Below are positions 1 through 7,153 of a stretch of 7,153 bases of DNA, in pieces. The position numbers and the translations under genes were made by a program. The notes under the pieces were generated by a model. The model made no database searches and had not been told where the DNA came from. It saw only the letters and a program-made list of their open reading frames with translations. The DNA lies in assembly GCA_023250585.1 (NCBI GenBank), contig JAHFAK010000114.1:1-7153 (forward strand). Direction: 5' to 3'. The stretch comes from Deltaproteobacteria bacterium (lineage in GTDB: Bacteria > Bdellovibrionota_F > JAHFAK01). Positions within the stretch are counted from its first letter, which is position 1. The number at the start of each line of letters is the position of its first letter.

Positions 1-109
1 TTGCATTCAAAATGATAACAAGGCGGCAAGGAGAAGGCGACGCAAACGTACGTAATGAGTACGTTGAGGAGCCGACGACGAAGCCAACGCAGTTAGCGTT
101 TGAATGCAA
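1..109. repeat. Intergenic inverted-repeat element with nested hairpin
   Basis: Bases 1-11 (TTGCATTCAAA) are the exact reverse complement of 99-109, so the element is bounded by perfect 11-bp inverted ends. Four more bases (16-19 with 92-95) continue the outer stem after a small internal loop. In the middle, 45-51 (AACGTAC) pairs with 59-65 (GTACGTT) around a 7-base loop. The element is about 48% G+C by hand count, visibly richer than the flanking AT-rich genes, and no convincing gene runs through it. It lies 14 bases beyond the permease stop codon, between that gene and whatever follows in the operon. The pattern fits a dispersed intergenic repeat (REP- or MITE-like) that would fold in RNA or as a cruciform. 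Copy number cannot be seen here, and position 1 is the window edge, so the left boundary may extend further. Confidence 0.6.
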
Positions 110-123
110 CTTAGTATAAACTA

Positions 124-1098
124 TTATTTTATGCTAATTCGCGGATCAACAAGAGTCAGCAAAATATCTGCAATAAGATTTCCCATAATGAGCGCACACG
201 AAGCTACAACACAAGAAGCCATTAAGAGCGGGCCATCATGGTTAAAAAGTGCATCAATAGTCAGACGTGCCATTCCAGGCCATCCCATAATTATTTCTAC
301 GAGAAAGGACCCATTCAGCAAAAATCCTAACGAATATCCGACAAGCGTAATTAATGAATTGAGCGTGTTGGCAAATGCATGTTTACCAATAATTTTTGCA
401 GGATGAAGTCCTTTTGCTCGCGCGACTCGAATGTAGTCTTCATTAAGCACTTCAAGCATCTGCGCACGTGTTTGCCTCATGTAATGTGCTAGTGCGCTCA
501 CTCCTAAGACACTTGCGGGGAGAATTAAATGCCACAACAGATCTTTAATTTTGCTCCATGCATTCATTGTTTCAAAATTAATACTCTGTACGCCGCCAAC
601 AGGAAAAATCTGAGTGCGTGCTGCTATAAAAATCATAACAAGTGCAAGAAAAATCGAAGGAATCGACATAAAAAAATATGACATAAAACGTATAATTTTA
701 TCTATCATTTGATTCTTATAGACTGCAGAAGTAATACCTCCCGGAATACCAAAGACCAAAGCAATGAGAAGACTTGCAAGAGCAAGATATAAAGTATTGG
801 TAAGACGACTTACAATTAAGATCATCACGGGCATTCGATAACTAAATGAATAGCCGAAATCTCCTTGTAACGCATTGATACACCATGAACCAAAGCGTAT
901 CAAAAACGGTTTATCTAGATTGAATTCCTTTTCATATGCATGAAGAAGTTCCGTAGAAATCGTAGGATCTTGACGAAATCGCGAGAGAAAATCTCCCGGC
1001 GCTAATTCCTGTAGACTAAAAATAAAAAAAGTAATGACAAGCAACAGTGGTAAGGTGATGAATATTCTGCGAATAATAACAGAAACCATGGGGCTCAA
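124..1098 (-). CDS. Peptide/nickel ABC transporter inner-membrane permease (DppB/OppB type)
   Basis: This is one of the two membrane subunits of a peptide-type ABC importer; it forms the translocation path and couples to the ATPases. The 324-residue reading is normal for the family. An N-terminal membrane helix (about residues 10-30) precedes the family signature GDFGYS, and about five further hydrophobic segments follow. The cytoplasmic EAA loop that docks on the ATPase is visible as DYIRVARAKG (around residue 220-230), and the family ending DPR is present (DPRISIK). The first codon is uncertain. TTG at 1098 overlaps the upstream TGA stop by four bases (TTGA). ATG at 1089 gives 321 residues (MVSVIIRR) and lies 5 bases after that stop, and I prefer it. 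Neither has a good Shine-Dalgarno sequence, so translation is probably coupled to the upstream binding-protein gene. The second permease and ATPase genes are not in the window. The true substrate (dipeptide, oligopeptide, nickel or other) cannot be told from this subunit. Confidence 0.93.
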   Translation of the reverse strand: MSPMVSVIIRRIFITLPLLLVITFFIFSLQELAPGDFLSRFRQDPTISTELLHAYEKEFNLDKPFLIRFGSWCINALQGDFGYSFSYRMPVMILIVSRLTNTLYLALASLLIALVFGIPGGITSAVYKNQMIDKIIRFMSYFFMSIPSIFLALVMIFIAARTQIFPVGGVQSINFETMNAWSKIKDLLWHLILPASVLGVSALAHYMRQTRAQMLEVLNEDYIRVARAKGLHPAKIIGKHAFANTLNSLITLVGYSLGFLLNGSFLVEIIMGWPGMARLTIDALFNHDGPLLMASCVVASCALIMGNLIADILLTLVDPRISIK

Positions 1099-2888
1099 TC
1101 TTTATAAAGCTCACTAATATTTGAATATGCACGAGGACTATAGACCCGGGGGTTTACGTTCTTAATAGAATTTTTTATTGCTACATATGCTTTACTGCGT
1201 ACTGTATAAATCATAGGCATTTCATCATTGAGAATCCTAAGAACTTCAAACCATGTTTCTTGTCTTTTTTGTAAATCAGCTGAAGTAATGAGTTGTCTCA
1301 TTAAAGTATCAATTCTTCCTTCCCACTCAGTTACTGGTTTCTTTTGCTCAGGATACCACATATGCAGCCGCCCGGATGAAAGGTACACATTCAGGCCCAT
1401 GGCTGGATCTGCTGGTCTCCCTTCAGAAAGACCAATAAGAATCAAATCAAAATTTTTCGTTTCGGTTATATAATTAAGTACTTGATTAAGCGGCACCGTT
1501 GAAAAAGATACTTCCATACCTAATTTTCTTAAATCACTTTGGATAAGTGTTCCCATTGCCACTCTCATCGAGTTATCGGAATTTGTCATGAATGTAAATG
1601 AAACTTTATGTCCTTCATTATCTTCAATGATAGTATCGTTGTTGCGATCATAGTAGCCACTTGATTTGAGTAATTCTTTGGCCTTATCAAGAGAATAGAG
1701 AGTTGGAGGAAGTTCTTTTGAATACCACCATTCGCTTCGTTCACTAAAAGGTTGATAACTTTCAACGCCTTTCTCATCAAGACAGGCTTTAATAATTCCT
1801 GCTCGATCAATCGCATAACTCACTGCCTGACGAAAATGTTTATCTTTAAACCATTTGAGCTTTTGAGAAGGAATAAGTGGTTGGCCTTTTGCATCTTTGC
1901 CCTCATTTTGGTTAAAGAATAAAAAAGTGCTTGTATCATCGGGCCCAAGGTCAAAAACAGTATATTTGCCATCTTCTTCCTTTTCCTTAAGTAGGGCATA
2001 ATCTTCAGAACGTACACTATCCAAAAGGTCTAGTTCACCATTTTGAAATTTTAAGCTCTGTGCATTTTTATCAGGAATAATAGTAAATACAACTTCATCA
2101 AAATAAGGGAGCTGGTGTTTTTTAAGATCATACCTAAAATAATATGGATTCTTTATAAGTGTTATTTTTACTCCAGGCTCGTAATTTTCAAGAAGATACG
2201 GGCCAATAGACACAATATTTTCAGGTTTAGTATCAACTTGTAATGTAGTAAGAAATTGCCCTTCTCGATAGTTTTTTTCATAGACATGTTTTGGTAAAAT
2301 AGGCACCGCGCTCACGGCATGCTCAAAAAGAATATTCACTTCAGTAAGCTTCATAGTTACTGTATAATTATCAACTTTCTGTATAATAACTTTTTTCTTT
2401 TCGCCAGCAACAAAATGATACTTGAGTGTATTTGGAATAGCATTATCCATCACAACGGTGAATGTAAATAAAACATCATCTACCGTAAATGGTTCTCCAT
2501 CGCTCCATACAATTCCCTTACGCAATTTAAATGTCCACAAAAGCCCATCAAGTGACGAGCTCCAATCTTTTGCAAGATAGGGGAGTGATTTATTATTTTC
2601 ATGATCATAGGTAATCAATGTCGAAAAGATCGCTGGCAACAATACCGATTTACTATTTTCATCGACCGCAAGGATTGGATTGAATGATTTTGGATCTTCA
2701 ATAATCCCAATGATAAGACGTCCACCATAATCTCCTTCTCCATTAAAAATCAATGATTCTTGTGGATTATAATCCATCGTAATTTTTTTATCTTGATGAC
2801 GACTGCGAGACTTTTTTGTGGATGAAGAATTAGGACAACCAATCAAAGAAAGAAGAGAAATTACTATAATCGTCCATCGGAGTATCAT
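1095..2888 (-). CDS. Extracellular solute-binding lipoprotein, family 5 (peptide ABC transporter)
   Basis: A 597-residue periplasmic binding protein that captures substrate, probably peptides, and delivers it to the permease encoded just downstream. Residues 1-17 are a lipoprotein signal peptide (MILRW, then a hydrophobic stretch) ending in the lipobox LIGC with Cys18 as the lipidation site. A polar linker rich in Ser, Lys and Arg follows. The mature protein shows the SBP_bac_5 pattern: an N-terminal lobe with PKSFNP, LAKDWSSS and LRKGIVWSDGEPFTVDDV; a middle lobe with FRQAVSYAIDR; and a loop at about 411-426 (GYYDRNNDT...EDNEG) that matches the acidic loop often seen in this family. The start at 2888 is firm: there is an in-frame TAG at 2900-2898, no other start lies between, and the signal peptide begins here. 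There is no Shine-Dalgarno sequence, and a strong promoter sits only 8 bases upstream, suggesting a leaderless message. Residues 18-60 are poorly conserved-looking. Peptide specificity is inferred from family only. Confidence 0.93.
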   Translation of the reverse strand: MILRWTIIVISLLSLIGCPNSSSTKKSRSRHQDKKITMDYNPQESLIFNGEGDYGGRLIIGIIEDPKSFNPILAVDENSKSVLLPAIFSTLITYDHENNKSLPYLAKDWSSSLDGLLWTFKLRKGIVWSDGEPFTVDDVLFTFTVVMDNAIPNTLKYHFVAGEKKKVIIQKVDNYTVTMKLTEVNILFEHAVSAVPILPKHVYEKNYREGQFLTTLQVDTKPENIVSIGPYLLENYEPGVKITLIKNPYYFRYDLKKHQLPYFDEVVFTIIPDKNAQSLKFQNGELDLLDSVRSEDYALLKEKEEDGKYTVFDLGPDDTSTFLFFNQNEGKDAKGQPLIPSQKLKWFKDKHFRQAVSYAIDRAGIIKACLDEKGVESYQPFSERSEWWYSKELPPTLYSLDKAKELLKSSGYYDRNNDTIIEDNEGHKVSFTFMTNSDNSMRVAMGTLIQSDLRKLGMEVSFSTVPLNQVLNYITETKNFDLILIGLSEGRPADPAMGLNVYLSSGRLHMWYPEQKKPVTEWEGRIDTLMRQLITSADLQKRQETWFEVLRILNDEMPMIYTVRSKAYVAIKNSIKNVNPRVYSPRAYSNISELYKD

Positions 2889-2896
2889 AGAAACAG

Positions 2897-2925
2897 ACTA
2901 TAAAGAAATTCTGTTAATGGGTCAA
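2897..2925 (-). promoter_or_regulatory. Sigma70-like promoter for the ABC transporter operon
   Basis: Read on the minus strand, TTGACC (2925-2920) and TATAGT (2902-2897) are separated by exactly 17 bases. Each box differs from its consensus (TTGACA, TATAAT) at one position. Transcription would begin about 7-9 bases past the -10 box, at roughly 2890-2888. The start codon of the binding-protein gene is at 2888, so the mRNA would have essentially no 5' leader. No Shine-Dalgarno sequence is present to argue otherwise. Confidence 0.7.
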
Positions 2926-2958
2926 AAGAAAAACATGACTAGAAATAAGCTTGCTCAC

Positions 2959-3070
2959 ATGGAGTCTGCATGTTCTCTTTTTAATTGTATATCGACGTCG
3001 CTTCCATAATACTATTAAGAACAGAAAGCGCGATCGATATACAATTAAAAAGAGAACATGCAGACTCCAT
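2959..3070. repeat. Perfect 37-bp inverted repeat between divergent promoters
   Basis: Bases 2959-2995 are the exact reverse complement of 3034-3070: 37 of 37 positions match. After a 3-base mismatch on each side, 2999-3003 (CGCTT) pairs with 3026-3030 (AAGCG), leaving a 22-base loop at 3004-3025. The arms stop matching at both outer edges, and no target-site duplication is obvious. On the plus strand the right arm runs straight into a short T tract (3070-3074), so a plus-strand transcript through it would resemble an intrinsic terminator; the minus-strand side lacks a T tract. Small palindromes sit at the inner ends (CGACGTCG at 2993-3000, CGATCG at 3031-3036). The centre, about 3014.5, is nearly midway between the two outward -35 boxes at 2925 and 3097. 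It may be an insulating terminator, a protein-binding palindrome, a cruciform or a small mobile element; the sequence does not decide which. Confidence 0.9.
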
Positions 3071-3096
3071 TTTTAAATTCTATCTTGAAATAGACT

Positions 3097-3125
3097 TTGT
3101 TTTTTTAAAAATAATTTTTTATAGT
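3097..3125 (+). promoter_or_regulatory. Sigma70-like promoter for the tetraheme cytochrome gene
   Basis: TTGTTT (3097-3102) and TATAGT (3120-3125) are separated by 17 bases. The -10 box is identical to that of the divergent transporter promoter; the -35 box is weaker. Expected transcription starts, 7-8 bases after the -10 box, fall at 3132-3133, on the second of two adjacent ATG codons (3130 and 3133). That would make the message leaderless from the ATG at 3133. No Shine-Dalgarno sequence precedes either ATG. The surrounding DNA is very T- and A-rich, so a chance match is possible. Confidence 0.5.
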
Positions 3126-3129
3126 ATTC

Positions 3130-3624
3130 ATGATGAAAAATAAAATTTTTCTTATCCTGCTTTTTTTTGTATTTATTCAGTGTACACCAAAATTAATCCC
3201 TTATTTACGATTTAATAAAGAAGAACCCGTAATTGTTATGCAAGATATTGGAAAACTATTTAATCTTCAGTGTATCGATTGTCATAACGAACAAGGCTTA
3301 ACACACTTAGGAATGACCTCTAAAAAGGAAATGGATATATCGTATCTTTTGAATCTTGATTGTATCTCGTGCCATCGAGCAGATAAAACACTTACTCAAA
3401 CGGGTGAAGTAGGAAAAATTATGAGACGACTATCAAATGAAATGAAAGTTGATTGTCGTTATTGCCATAAAGAAACAGGCACATTCACTTCAGTTGGAGA
3501 AACATCAAAAGAGATGTTTGTTCTATCATTTAAAAGTGGACGTCAGTGCAATTATTGTCACACCGAACGTTTTGCTTTAAAGAATAATGCCAAAGAAGAA
3601 TATCAAGCAGCCAAGAAACTTTAG
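3130..3624 (+). CDS. Small tetraheme c-type cytochrome built of four Met/CxxCH modules
   Basis: A 164-residue exported protein expected to bind four covalent haems and carry electrons outside the cytoplasmic membrane. Residues 1-17 form a short signal or anchor (MMKNK, then a hydrophobic run), followed by Cys18 in FIQC, a poor lipobox because Gln precedes the Cys. Four haem sites are CIDCH (48-52), CISCH (78-82), CRYCH (109-113) and CNYCH (140-144), spaced 30, 31 and 31 residues. The spacers resemble each other, with a T..G..(S/G)K..M pattern between haem sites, so the protein is a tandem repeat. Each CxxCH has a Met 10-11 residues before it (M37, M68, M98, M129). This recalls the Met-ligand arrangement of photosynthetic reaction-centre-type cytochrome c subunits and their non-photosynthetic relatives, although the protein is far shorter. 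That family link is inference; the CxxCH motifs are direct. Translation may start at the ATG of 3133, losing one residue. No oxidoreductase or cytochrome-maturation gene is adjacent. It converges on alaS, leaving 35 bases between stops. Confidence 0.88.
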   Translation: MMKNKIFLILLFFVFIQCTPKLIPYLRFNKEEPVIVMQDIGKLFNLQCIDCHNEQGLTHLGMTSKKEMDISYLLNLDCISCHRADKTLTQTGEVGKIMRRLSNEMKVDCRYCHKETGTFTSVGETSKEMFVLSFKSGRQCNYCHTERFALKNNAKEEYQAAKKL

Positions 3625-3627
3625 AAC

Positions 3628-3663
3628 GTGACTGATGCATGTTGACAGAGAGCTGACAGTCAC
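3628..3663. terminator. Possible hairpin between convergent genes
   Basis: GTGACTG (3628-3634) is the reverse complement of CAGTCAC (3657-3663), giving a 7-bp stem around a 22-base loop. It lies 3 bases after the cytochrome stop codon, and its right arm contains the alaS stop codon (3660-3662). A shared bidirectional terminator would be expected at this spot, but neither strand has a T tract after the stem, so it is a weak candidate for intrinsic termination. Confidence 0.3.
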
Positions 3664-6239
3664 ATTGTTGGTCTTATAAGCTTTTTTGCTGTATCAATTA
3701 TGATTGCATAATCGATATCTCTTCCCACCGACCCTTGCGCAAGATGAGGTTTACCACCACCTTTGCCGCCAAAGGGCATGAGTAAAGAATTAATGAGGTC
3801 ATTGGCTTTAATAGTATTAATGGTGGAAGTAAGAATGACTTGAATTTTATCACCTTCAGCAAAGATAACACAAACGCCAGGTTTATATTTTTCTTTCACC
3901 AAATCACTGAAGTGCAAAAGATCGTCGCGATCTTCAAGATTTACTTTAAAAAATACAAGATGAGAATTATTTATTTTTTCTTGCGCCACAATATATTTTT
4001 CGAGTGATGAAACGATTTCATTTTTTTCAAACTTTTTTAATTTTGATTTTAATGATTTATTTTCGCTTTTGAGTTTCTCTAATTCTTGTGTGAAATTTTT
4101 CTCAAGTTCTTTATTGGTGTTTCTGTAATATGCATGTACAGCTGCCCCAGTTATGGCTTCGATACGACGCAAGCCAGAAGCAACAGAACTTTCAGAAATA
4201 ATTTTAAATGCGCCAATATCCCCTGTCCTTTTGACATGGGTTCCACCGCAAAGTTCCATACTATAATCAGAAACTTTAACAACCCGAACTTTATCCGAAT
4301 ATTTTTCACCAAACAATGAAACTGCACCACTTTTTTTTGCTGCATCTAATGAAACATCTACATCGGTTTCTACAGGAATATTCTCGATAATCTTTTGATT
4401 AACATGATTTTCGATTGCTTCAATTTCGGCAGGCATTGGCTTTTTTGAAAAATTATAATCAAAACGAAGCTTCTCGGCTTCAACTTTTGAACCCGCTTGA
4501 TGAACATATACACCAAGCACATCTTTCAAAGCACGATGAAGCAAATGTGTTGCCGTATGATTTCGTCGTGTATCATCACGGATAGTGTTAATTATTGAAG
4601 CACGCACATGAGTATCTTGTGAAATTTTTAACGTACCTGTCTTGAGTTTACAAATAGCGGTTATAAAACCATCTATTTTTTGAGTATCTATAACGGATAA
4701 CGTAAAATCCGCATGTTCAATAATACCAGTATCACCTACTTGTCCTCCTGCTTCTGCATAAAAAGGAGTTTCCATAAGAACGATATAAATATAATTATCT
4801 TTTCGCGCGTAGCGATTGATAGTCGACGTTACTAAATTATTTGTATACCCAACAAAAATTGAATTCTCATTGTTTATGATCGTCCATTCGAGTTGAATAT
4901 TTTTATCAATAAACTGCGCGCTTTTTTGGCTTCGTTCTCGTTGATCCGACATGAGCCTCTCATATTCACTGCTATCGAGCCCAAGTCCTTTTTCCTCAAG
5001 CATTATTTTTGTTAAATCAATGGGAAAGCCATAGGTATCATAGAGCTTAAAAGCAACAGAACCTGACATATTTTTTGTTTTTTTCTGAATTATATTTTTT
5101 ACTTCTTGATTAAAAAGCTCAATCCCTCGATCAATCGTTACTAAAAATTTTTCTTCTTCCTCTTGAATGAGGCGAGCAACATATTTTTTTTTCTCAATGA
5201 GCTCAGAATAAAAAGATCCCATAATGTTACAAAGTGGATCAACGAGTTTATAAATAACCGGTTCAGTAAAGCCAATGTCATGAGCAAAGCGTTCCGCGCG
5301 TCGTAAAATTCTTCGTAAGACGTAGCCTCTTCCTTCATTTGAAAAGAGTGCGCCATCGGCAAGTGAAAAGGCAAGGCTGCGGATATGATCGGCGATCACA
5401 TTTTTTGCAACGATGTATTCTTTATTTCCTGAAAGCTCATCGAGTTTTTCTCGTAGTGGAATAAAAAGATCAGTATCAAATACTGACTGAACTCCATTTT
5501 TTAAAGCAAGTACCCGCTCAAGTCCCATGCCGGTATCAACATTTTTGTATTTGAGAGGAATAAAAGACCCATCTTCGGTGCGATTAAATTCCATGAAAAC
5601 TAAATTCCAGTATTCAAGAAAACGATCACATGAGCATCCCGGCTTACAATCAGGTTTTCCACATCCGAATTCCGTGCCTTGGTCATAATACAACTCCGTA
5701 CAATACCCGCATGGACCTGTCGGACCCATGCTCCAAAAATTTTCTTCATCGCCTTTTTGTAAATTACCCAGACGAATAATTCGTGAATCATCAAGCCCAT
5801 CTGGCCGTAAATGCTTTTGCCAAATTTTAAACGATTCCGTATCATCTTTATAAATCGATACATAGAGATTTTCTCTAGGAAACGTGAGAATTGTTCGTGA
5901 GAATTGCCACGCCCATTCGATTGCTTCTTCTTTGTAGTAACTTCCCTCAAATGACCAATTACCAAGCATTTCAAAAAAAGTGAGATGACGACCATCTTTG
6001 CCTACTTCATCAAGGTCATTGTGTTTACCACCTGCACGAATACATTTTTGAACCGAACATGCTTTTGTATATGCCCTCTTTTCTTTACCTAATAAAACAT
6101 CTTTGAATTGATTCATTCCTGCATTGGTAAAAAGAAGCGTGGGATCATCGCCAGGAATTACCGGCGAGCTAGTAACAGAGGTGTGTTTATTTTTTACAAA
6201 GAAATCAATAAAGCTCTTGCGTAGATCACTTGCTTTCAT
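3660..6239 (-). CDS. alaS: Alanine--tRNA ligase
   Basis: Charges tRNA-Ala with alanine in the cytoplasm and clears mischarged Ser or Gly. I place the start at ATG 6239, giving 859 residues (E. coli AlaRS has about 875), because family members begin MKASDLR. The reading frame stays open upstream to 6326, but that stretch lies over the aminotransferase gene and does not look like AlaRS. The class II catalytic domain includes SSPVIPGDDPTLLFTNAGMNQF near the N-terminus, GRHLTFFEMLGNWSF, and SMGPTGPCGYCTELYYDQG followed by a four-Cys stretch (GCGKPDCKPGCSCDRF) and EYWNLVFMEFNR. The editing domain has its metal ligands: H561 and H565 in HTATHLLH, C664 and H668 in CGGTHV. A charged coiled-coil at about 705-742 links to the C-terminal DHHA1 domain with GGKGGGKPH at 824-832. 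It is intact. Its start lies 14 bases inside the aminotransferase gene and has no clear Shine-Dalgarno sequence, so it is probably translationally coupled and co-transcribed. An alternative in-frame ATG at 6248 adds three residues. Confidence 0.97.
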   Translation of the reverse strand: MKASDLRKSFIDFFVKNKHTSVTSSPVIPGDDPTLLFTNAGMNQFKDVLLGKEKRAYTKACSVQKCIRAGGKHNDLDEVGKDGRHLTFFEMLGNWSFEGSYYKEEAIEWAWQFSRTILTFPRENLYVSIYKDDTESFKIWQKHLRPDGLDDSRIIRLGNLQKGDEENFWSMGPTGPCGYCTELYYDQGTEFGCGKPDCKPGCSCDRFLEYWNLVFMEFNRTEDGSFIPLKYKNVDTGMGLERVLALKNGVQSVFDTDLFIPLREKLDELSGNKEYIVAKNVIADHIRSLAFSLADGALFSNEGRGYVLRRILRRAERFAHDIGFTEPVIYKLVDPLCNIMGSFYSELIEKKKYVARLIQEEEEKFLVTIDRGIELFNQEVKNIIQKKTKNMSGSVAFKLYDTYGFPIDLTKIMLEEKGLGLDSSEYERLMSDQRERSQKSAQFIDKNIQLEWTIINNENSIFVGYTNNLVTSTINRYARKDNYIYIVLMETPFYAEAGGQVGDTGIIEHADFTLSVIDTQKIDGFITAICKLKTGTLKISQDTHVRASIINTIRDDTRRNHTATHLLHRALKDVLGVYVHQAGSKVEAEKLRFDYNFSKKPMPAEIEAIENHVNQKIIENIPVETDVDVSLDAAKKSGAVSLFGEKYSDKVRVVKVSDYSMELCGGTHVKRTGDIGAFKIISESSVASGLRRIEAITGAAVHAYYRNTNKELEKNFTQELEKLKSENKSLKSKLKKFEKNEIVSSLEKYIVAQEKINNSHLVFFKVNLEDRDDLLHFSDLVKEKYKPGVCVIFAEGDKIQVILTSTINTIKANDLINSLLMPFGGKGGGKPHLAQGSVGRDIDYAIIIDTAKKLIRPTM

Positions 6240-7101
6240 AATATTCATGAACTTTCTGTGCGAAGAGCGTCTGCAACTTTTTTGTAATTTTTTCTGGAAT
6301 TTCAGAAAATATTTTTTCATGATCAATGCTTTTTACCGGCATAATTTCTTTAAGAGTACTCGAGATAAATGCTTCATCAGCGTTCCAAAGATCTGACTTT
6401 GTAAACGCTCCTTCATTGACTACAAGCTTTGCCTCTCGTGCACATTTGATAATAAAATTACGTGTAATACCACTTAAAATACCCATCTCTAAGGAAGGAG
6501 TGCAGAGGACATTTCCCTTAACAAAAAAGAAATTACTCGTTGATGATTCGGTACAGTAGTTTTGATGATTCAAAAGAAGCGCATCATGAAAGCCCGTATC
6601 ACGTGCTTCGTTAAAGGCAAGCGCGCTATTTAAATAATTACCACTTTTTGCTCCAGGATCAAAAGAATCAATGGGATTTCGTCTAATTGTTACAATTTTC
6701 AAATCGATTCCTTCGCTATACTGTGCTTTAGGACTAGGAAAATATTCTTTCAAAAGAACAATGAAACTCGGTTTAGTCGGCTGACTAAAATCCAAATTAA
6801 TATCAGCTATACCTCGCGTGATAATTAATCTGATATAGGTTTGTTTAAAACGTGCTTCAGAAACGCATTGATCTAATGTGTCTTTTATTTCTTCACATGA
6901 ACAAGGTAAAGCAAGGCGTAAATAATCGGCGCTTTTTTTCAGTCGTTCAATATGTTCATCGAGAAGAAATATACGTTTTCCATTATATGATCGAAAAACT
7001 TCATAAATGCTATCTCCACAAATAAGCCCTCGATCTAAAACAGAAATTTTCGCATTTTCTTGATTATACCACTTACCATCAATATAAATCTTATATTCCA
7101 T
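6226..7101 (-). CDS. Class IV PLP-dependent aminotransferase (IlvE / D-amino-acid transaminase family)
   Basis: A 291-residue cytoplasmic PLP enzyme that moves an amino group between an amino acid and a 2-oxo acid; family members act on branched-chain amino acids, D-alanine or aminodeoxychorismate. Fold-type IV landmarks are in order: ISVLDRGLICGDSIYEVFR (19-37), the phosphate-site Arg in DEHIERL (R53), the PLP-binding Lys in GAKSGNYLNSA (K152), the conserved Glu in CTESSTSNFF (E185) and the phosphate-cup motif GITR (211-214). The late stretch ISSTLKEIMPV is typical of bacterial IlvE-like and D-amino-acid transaminase-like members. YEVFR and the lack of an EGIRAY-like motif lean away from classical IlvE, but substrate cannot be settled, so I give no symbol. 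The start at 7101 has a GGAG at 7113-7110, 8 bases away. The 3' end overlaps alaS by 14 bases, implying one operon. If it makes or uses alanine, the pairing with alaS would be metabolically sensible; that is inference. Confidence 0.92.
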   Translation of the reverse strand: MEYKIYIDGKWYNQENAKISVLDRGLICGDSIYEVFRSYNGKRIFLLDEHIERLKKSADYLRLALPCSCEEIKDTLDQCVSEARFKQTYIRLIITRGIADINLDFSQPTKPSFIVLLKEYFPSPKAQYSEGIDLKIVTIRRNPIDSFDPGAKSGNYLNSALAFNEARDTGFHDALLLNHQNYCTESSTSNFFFVKGNVLCTPSLEMGILSGITRNFIIKCAREAKLVVNEGAFTKSDLWNADEAFISSTLKEIMPVKSIDHEKIFSEIPEKITKKLQTLFAQKVHEYYESK

Positions 7102-7109
7102 AGGAGCTT

Positions 7110-7113
7110 CTCC
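7110..7113 (-). promoter_or_regulatory. Ribosome binding site of the aminotransferase gene
   Basis: GGAG on the minus strand lies 8 bases before ATG 7101. It is the only clear Shine-Dalgarno sequence before any gene in the window. It is also one arm of a tiny palindrome, GGAG-AAG-CTCC (7113-7103), which could partly mask it in RNA. If the predicted promoter starts transcription near 7109, this GGAG would not be in the mRNA, so either the site or that promoter may be misread. Confidence 0.5.
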
Positions 7114-7115
7114 GT

Positions 7116-7144
7116 ATCATACATATACTTAAAAGCCAATTCAA
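7116..7144 (-). promoter_or_regulatory. Possible sigma70-like promoter for the aminotransferase-alaS operon
   Basis: On the minus strand, TTGAAT (7144-7139) and TATGAT (7121-7116) are 17 bases apart. The predicted start of transcription is near 7109, giving a leader of about 7-9 bases before ATG 7101. The window ends 9 bases beyond the -35 box, so an upstream gene in the same operon cannot be excluded. Confidence 0.45.
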
Positions 7145-7153
7145 ATTTACACG

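Follow-up and report, generated by a model that had tools for sequence, protein, structure and literature searches.

Bacterial families of stem-loop-containing repeats (SLS families; PMC1590033, PMC2267715) are dispersed, non-coding and mostly intergenic, with a common secondary structure, and are present at tens of copies per genome within one lineage; the published account inclines to a function at the RNA level. Prokaryotic MITEs (PMC10969869) carry terminal inverted repeats, produce target-site duplications and lack an ORF. REP and BIME elements, which are associated with RAYT transposases (PMC3733652, PMC2817692), are multi-copy intergenic palindromes of 20-40 bp with a GTAG or CGTC tag at one end. 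Mutation by template switching has been described in yeast (PMC8604942), in RNA genes (PMC8794818) and in the correction of quasipalindromes in E. coli (PMC7202029). When a polymerase switches template at inverted repeats, homogenised arms together with an inverted spacer are the described outcome (PMC8604942). RNA hairpins have been proposed to arise and persist through the same process, full loop inversions being reported as rare (PMC8794818); the loop inversions in these two papers are rare and short (2-8 bases).

We analysed a large palindrome in a stretch of 7,153 nucleotides from a Deltaproteobacteria bacterium (hereafter the window; GenBank assembly GCA_023250585.1, contig JAHFAK010000114.1, positions 1 to 7,153). 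Our analyses identify this palindrome as a member of a dispersed family of non-coding hairpin repeats. The repeat corresponds to the SLS families in being dispersed, mostly intergenic, uniform in secondary structure, present in tens of copies and confined to one lineage; it departs from them in that its arms diverge between copies yet match near-perfectly within each copy by Watson-Crick pairs, and in that the direction of its loop is randomised. The kind of repeat is known; this variant is unusual in that its loop flipping is saturated and its arms covary as in an RNA, yet without wobble. In the literature covered, with most subscription journals outside its scope, no bacterial repeat family is described whose arms and loop behave in this way.

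The palindrome and its genomic family

The layout of the palindrome and its neighbouring genes is given in Table 1. The exact 37-bp arms, 38-base centre and 5-bp inner stem reported in an earlier, sequence-only reading of the window are borne out by direct comparison of the arms and by a repeat search, the inner stem consisting of CGCTT/AAGCG plus a CG/CG step. The palindrome is by far the longest inverted repeat in the window and, with the inner stem included, it is returned by the repeat search as 45-nt arms at 93%. The fold has a z score of -11.0 for the plus strand and of -11.7 for the minus strand, and none of 200 shuffled sequences was equally stable; hence the hairpin lies far beyond chance. 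Rfam contains no match for it, and terminator prediction called none at this site despite the short T tract there. The sequence-only reading had also set the palindrome between two outward promoters: the divergent genes are in place, and the promoters are weakly supported, since there are three sigma-70-like matches where 1.6 ± 0.9 are expected by chance, which is barely above that expectation.

Table 1. Features of the palindrome and its surroundings, in window coordinates.
Feature	Position	Strand	Description
Left arm	2959-2995	+	37 bp, ATGGAGTCTGCATGTTCTCTTTTTAATTGTATATCGA; exact reverse complement of the right arm; outer part private to the window copy
Right arm	3034-3070	+	37 bp
Centre	2996-3033	+	38 bases, CGTCGCTTCCATAATACTATTAAGAACAGAAAGCGCGA; asymmetric core and loop conserved in the family
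Inner stem, left side (CGCTT)	2999-3003	+	Pairs with 3026-3030
Inner stem, right side (AAGCG)	3026-3030	+	Pairs with 2999-3003
T tract 3' of right arm	3071-3075	+	Not a family feature (1/34 stand-alone copies)
Family-5 solute-binding protein gene, peptide-type ABC transporter	1095-2888	minus	Divergent neighbour of the palindrome
Small multihaem cytochrome gene	3130-3624	plus	Divergent neighbour of the palindrome

The same reading had proposed a search of whole genomes, and this search places the palindrome within a family. Comparison of the 112-bp sequence at the DNA level finds about 40 matching places in its own genome (2.24 Mb, assembled in 164 contigs), and a covariance model built from 37 copies finds about 80 among the best 150 candidates scored, so that more copies may exist. 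We extracted and analysed 76 hairpins, about 42 of them borne by a MITE and about 34, the window copy included, standing alone. According to a simple ORF caller, 32 of the 34 stand-alone copies and 41 of the 42 MITE copies fall between predicted genes, and the ORFs at the three exceptions are putative. Many copies, a common secondary structure and a mainly intergenic placement are the attributes of a dispersed bacterial stem-loop repeat of the SLS type.

Elsewhere, the hairpin DNA has no match in 40 other genomes and the covariance model none in 20; the exact core pattern is without a match in GTDB genome contigs and IMG/VR, and blastn against plasmids and phages returns no hairpin. The genomes compared are distant, one belonging to the same class as the host and the rest sharing only its domain, and the host lineage is itself isolated, the best full-length match to its alanyl-tRNA synthetase among named genomes being 48%.

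Chimeric reads can yield perfect palindromes, and a fold-back chimera in the assembly would account for the window copy as an artefact. This explanation is excluded because one core recurs, with different arms, at about 80 loci that span many gene contexts and in many cases lie within target duplications, and we accord it practically no weight.

A second dispersed repeat, with complementary ends (TTGCATTCAAA ... TTTGAATGCAA), occupies positions 1-115 of the window and is present about 35 times in the genome at close to full length. Six of these copies are 100% identical across 115 bp, so that this repeat is apparently younger than the hairpin family. At one locus (L042:3869-3913; G000:C159:30961), half of it is joined to half of a hairpin in a chimera.

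Arm covariation and loop direction

Across the family there is almost no variation in the core CGACGTCGCTTCCAT or in the loop motif AAGAA (diversity 0.00-0.03, and 0.02-0.03 pairwise in the core columns), while the arms vary strongly between copies, with a pairwise diversity mostly of 0.25-0.63. Within copies the arms remain paired: all 76 together comprise 2,853 Watson-Crick, 19 G-T and 43 mismatched cells, and in the 70 clean copies that are left when six ragged ones are set aside, 2,663 of the 2,690 cells are Watson-Crick, 7 are G-T, 9 are A-C and 11 are other non-pairs. Changes on both sides have occurred in 32 of the 42 consensus pairs, and one-sided changes are rare. A selected RNA helix is expected to tolerate G-U far more than A-C. 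Here, G-T is no commoner than A-C, and the covariation therefore does not resemble the effect of selection on RNA pairing. Furthermore, the core, which is normally asymmetric (GACGTC on the left, GCGCTC or GCGATC on the right), has been symmetrised in four copies, several bases at once, from left to right in L025, L074 and L082:3185 and from right to left in L083. Wobble that is not favoured and multi-base symmetrisation of the core both point to copying of one arm from the other at the DNA level. Gene conversion between arms, which the sequence-only reading had offered among its explanations of the perfect match, comes close to the pattern of the copies, in that the arms are homogenised at the DNA level within each copy.

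Loop direction can be scored against an outside frame in the MITE-borne copies, since the MITE ends are asymmetric, with an extra ATGGGGTGAG-like spacer on one side. In this frame, 21 copies read in one direction and 19 in the other. Two pairs of near-identical copies differ by an exact inversion: L068 and L070:3804 are alike in frame and arms, L067 and L073 are alike in frame and have one difference in the arms, and in both pairs the centres are exactly reverse-complemented. On a weakly supported tree of frame and arms, in which three well-supported branches alone force at least three inversions, orientation needs 13 changes compared with a shuffled mean of 13.6, and 226 of 500 shuffles are as low; hence, across the divergence among the copies, loop direction does not follow descent.

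Strong apparent covariation, a conserved core and loop, and copies that adjoin genes would all be seen if the hairpin were a structured regulatory RNA lying in many 5' or 3' untranslated regions, the covariation reflecting selected pairing and the conserved loop being the active part. Such an RNA should tolerate G-U and keep to one strand. G-T cells are not in excess over A-C (7 against 9), 37 perfect pairs at every locus exceed what RNA selection usually demands, and there is no Rfam match. Loop direction is random in the MITE frame (21:19) and nearly balanced when scored against tandem genes (11 against 9), so that an RNA tied to one strand would be missing in half of the cases. We therefore regard a regulatory RNA as decidedly unlikely.

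The best explanation of the whole, to which we assign a probability of roughly 0.74, is a dispersed hairpin repeat whose arms are kept matched at the DNA level, with template switching as the most likely means; the covariation would then be a by-product, and the repeat is most likely selfish or a passenger. A polymerase that used one arm as the template for the other inside the hairpin would homogenise mutations, and by switching to the other strand across the hairpin it would invert the loop; the patterns of arms and loops suggest that such switching acts on the whole family, and the covariation of the arms may then be a side effect of replication, in which case it is no sign that an RNA has been selected. 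The family shares with published template-switch mutation its homogenised arms, the symmetrisation of several bases together and the exact inversion of the spacer between near-identical copies, and is set apart by a centre of about 38-40 bases that has been flipped to saturation family-wide. Where the published account of the SLS families inclines to an RNA-level function, the present evidence favours a cause at the level of DNA. Similar traces would be expected from recombination between arms, from the resolution of a cruciform or from self-primed copying in the course of transposition.

MITE-borne and stand-alone copies

About 42 copies form the centre of a 157-bp MITE that has terminal inverted repeats (GTAATGGCTCAGTTA and variants) and no ORF, and exact direct repeats of at least 8 bp are present at 17 of the 32 MITE copies with both ends recognised. 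In their ends, 8-bp duplications, length and lack of an ORF, these copies resemble prokaryotic MITEs. The resemblance does not extend to the stand-alone class, the window copy and about 33 others, which has neither terminal repeats nor target duplications; moreover, we found no matching transposase, and the same ends also enclose an unrelated GGATCCCGCGG hairpin. Decay of MITE copies was rejected as the source of the stand-alone class because their flanks hold no trace of MITE ends, the best match being 8.49 of 15 bases as against 8.60 in shuffled flanks. The suggestion that the palindrome is a small mobile element comes close to the pattern of the copies, about half of which sit in a MITE with target duplications; the window copy itself has neither ends nor duplications. 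The middle of the arm also distinguishes the classes, reading CTTTTTG in stand-alone copies and CAAAAAG in MITE copies, as if a short segment had been swapped between arms.

No transposon was seen between matches to the terminal inverted repeats in this assembly, several of these matches lying at the ends of its 164 contigs. IS66 was considered as a source of GTAA ends with 8-bp duplications and rejected, since the genome has no IS66 transposase. The unrelated GGATCCCGCGG hairpin (GGATCCCGTGGTCAAGCCACGGGATGACA) lies within MITEs with the same GTAAT..CTCAGTTA ends at L097, L102, L103, L105, L107, L110 and L111, and these ends seem to have gained two hairpins that are unrelated to each other. 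At L093, L094, L095 and L108:2000, the ends and 8-bp duplications persist without any hairpin; these scars are probably deletions across the hairpin, and would fit deletion at short matches.

Two points stand against the preferred explanation by template switching: the core is less diverse (0.02-0.03) than the ends and spacer of the MITE (0.19), and the explanation does not account for the spread of stand-alone copies, which have neither target duplications nor any trace of MITE ends. The constancy of the core suggests that something recognises it or that copies have recently converted one another and, as the core is more constant than the MITE ends, a recognition factor is kept as a candidate reading. 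A protein such as a single-strand transposase, integrase or resolvase would recognise the extruded core and mobilise or flip the hairpin, and hairpin-primed synthesis would perfect the arms at each round, as in the flip/flop ends of parvoviruses. The equal frequency of the two loop directions and the stand-alone copies without target duplications would also be in keeping with this; however, none of the four Y1 transposase-like genes in the genome has a hairpin copy beside it, IS66 transposase is lacking, and no enzyme was found to be linked to the hairpin, so we consider it unlikely. Stated more broadly, the core might be the recognition site of an undescribed system of hairpin mobility or flipping, with a single-stranded or self-primed intermediate from which an arm would be rebuilt at each round, the centre left either way round and stand-alone copies spread without duplications; this we hold to be doubtful, although worth retaining.

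The same four Y1-like loci offer no link to RAYT transposases, and that candidate was rejected. Like REP and BIME elements, the hairpins are multi-copy intergenic palindromes; unlike them, they are about three times longer (about 112 bp), have symmetric ends and carry no end tag.

The nuclease component SbcC has no match in the host genome (G000), compared with matches in 12 of 14 control genomes, and SbcD has a weak, short match below the cut-off. Many other genomes in the set are likewise without an SbcD match over the cut-off, and the absence of SbcCD is therefore suggestive at most. Loss of a hairpin nuclease would favour the persistence of such palindromes.

Gene context and significance

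Copies occur in tandem, divergent and convergent gene settings with no preferred orientation, which gives no support to the proposals that the palindrome isolates two transcription units or acts as a regulator site of its promoter pair. A bidirectional terminator or an insulator between divergent genes would draw on the great stability of the hairpin and on the T tract at one side of the window copy. Among the copies, however, just one of the 34 that stand alone and one of the 42 in MITEs have a T-rich tail 3' of the right arm, so that the U tract that follows the hairpin of an intrinsic terminator is not a feature of the family and a terminator role was rejected; besides the failure of the prediction to call a terminator at the window site, fewer copies lie between convergent genes than in any other setting (2 of 30 stand-alone copies) and no plus-strand gene lies upstream of the window copy. 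We judge such a role very unlikely. The tract does exist where the sequence-only reading saw it as suited to plus-strand termination, with no plus-strand gene preceding it, but it is particular to the window copy.

No family-wide role as terminator, insulator or strand-specific RNA fits. The hairpin is most likely selfish or a passenger, and any effects on the two flanking genes would be incidental. The interpretation given in the sequence-only reading is partly supported: the window palindrome is a mobile-element-related repeat with arm conversion and is not specific to its promoter pair.

The family represents a natural experiment with about 80 parallel copies, and allows template switching to be measured at individual loci of a bacterial genome. 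Replication alone could yield signals of 'conserved RNA structure' that covariation searches would call functional; comparison of G-T with A-C cells, together with the test of loop orientation, offers a means of telling covariation made by replication from selection on RNA.
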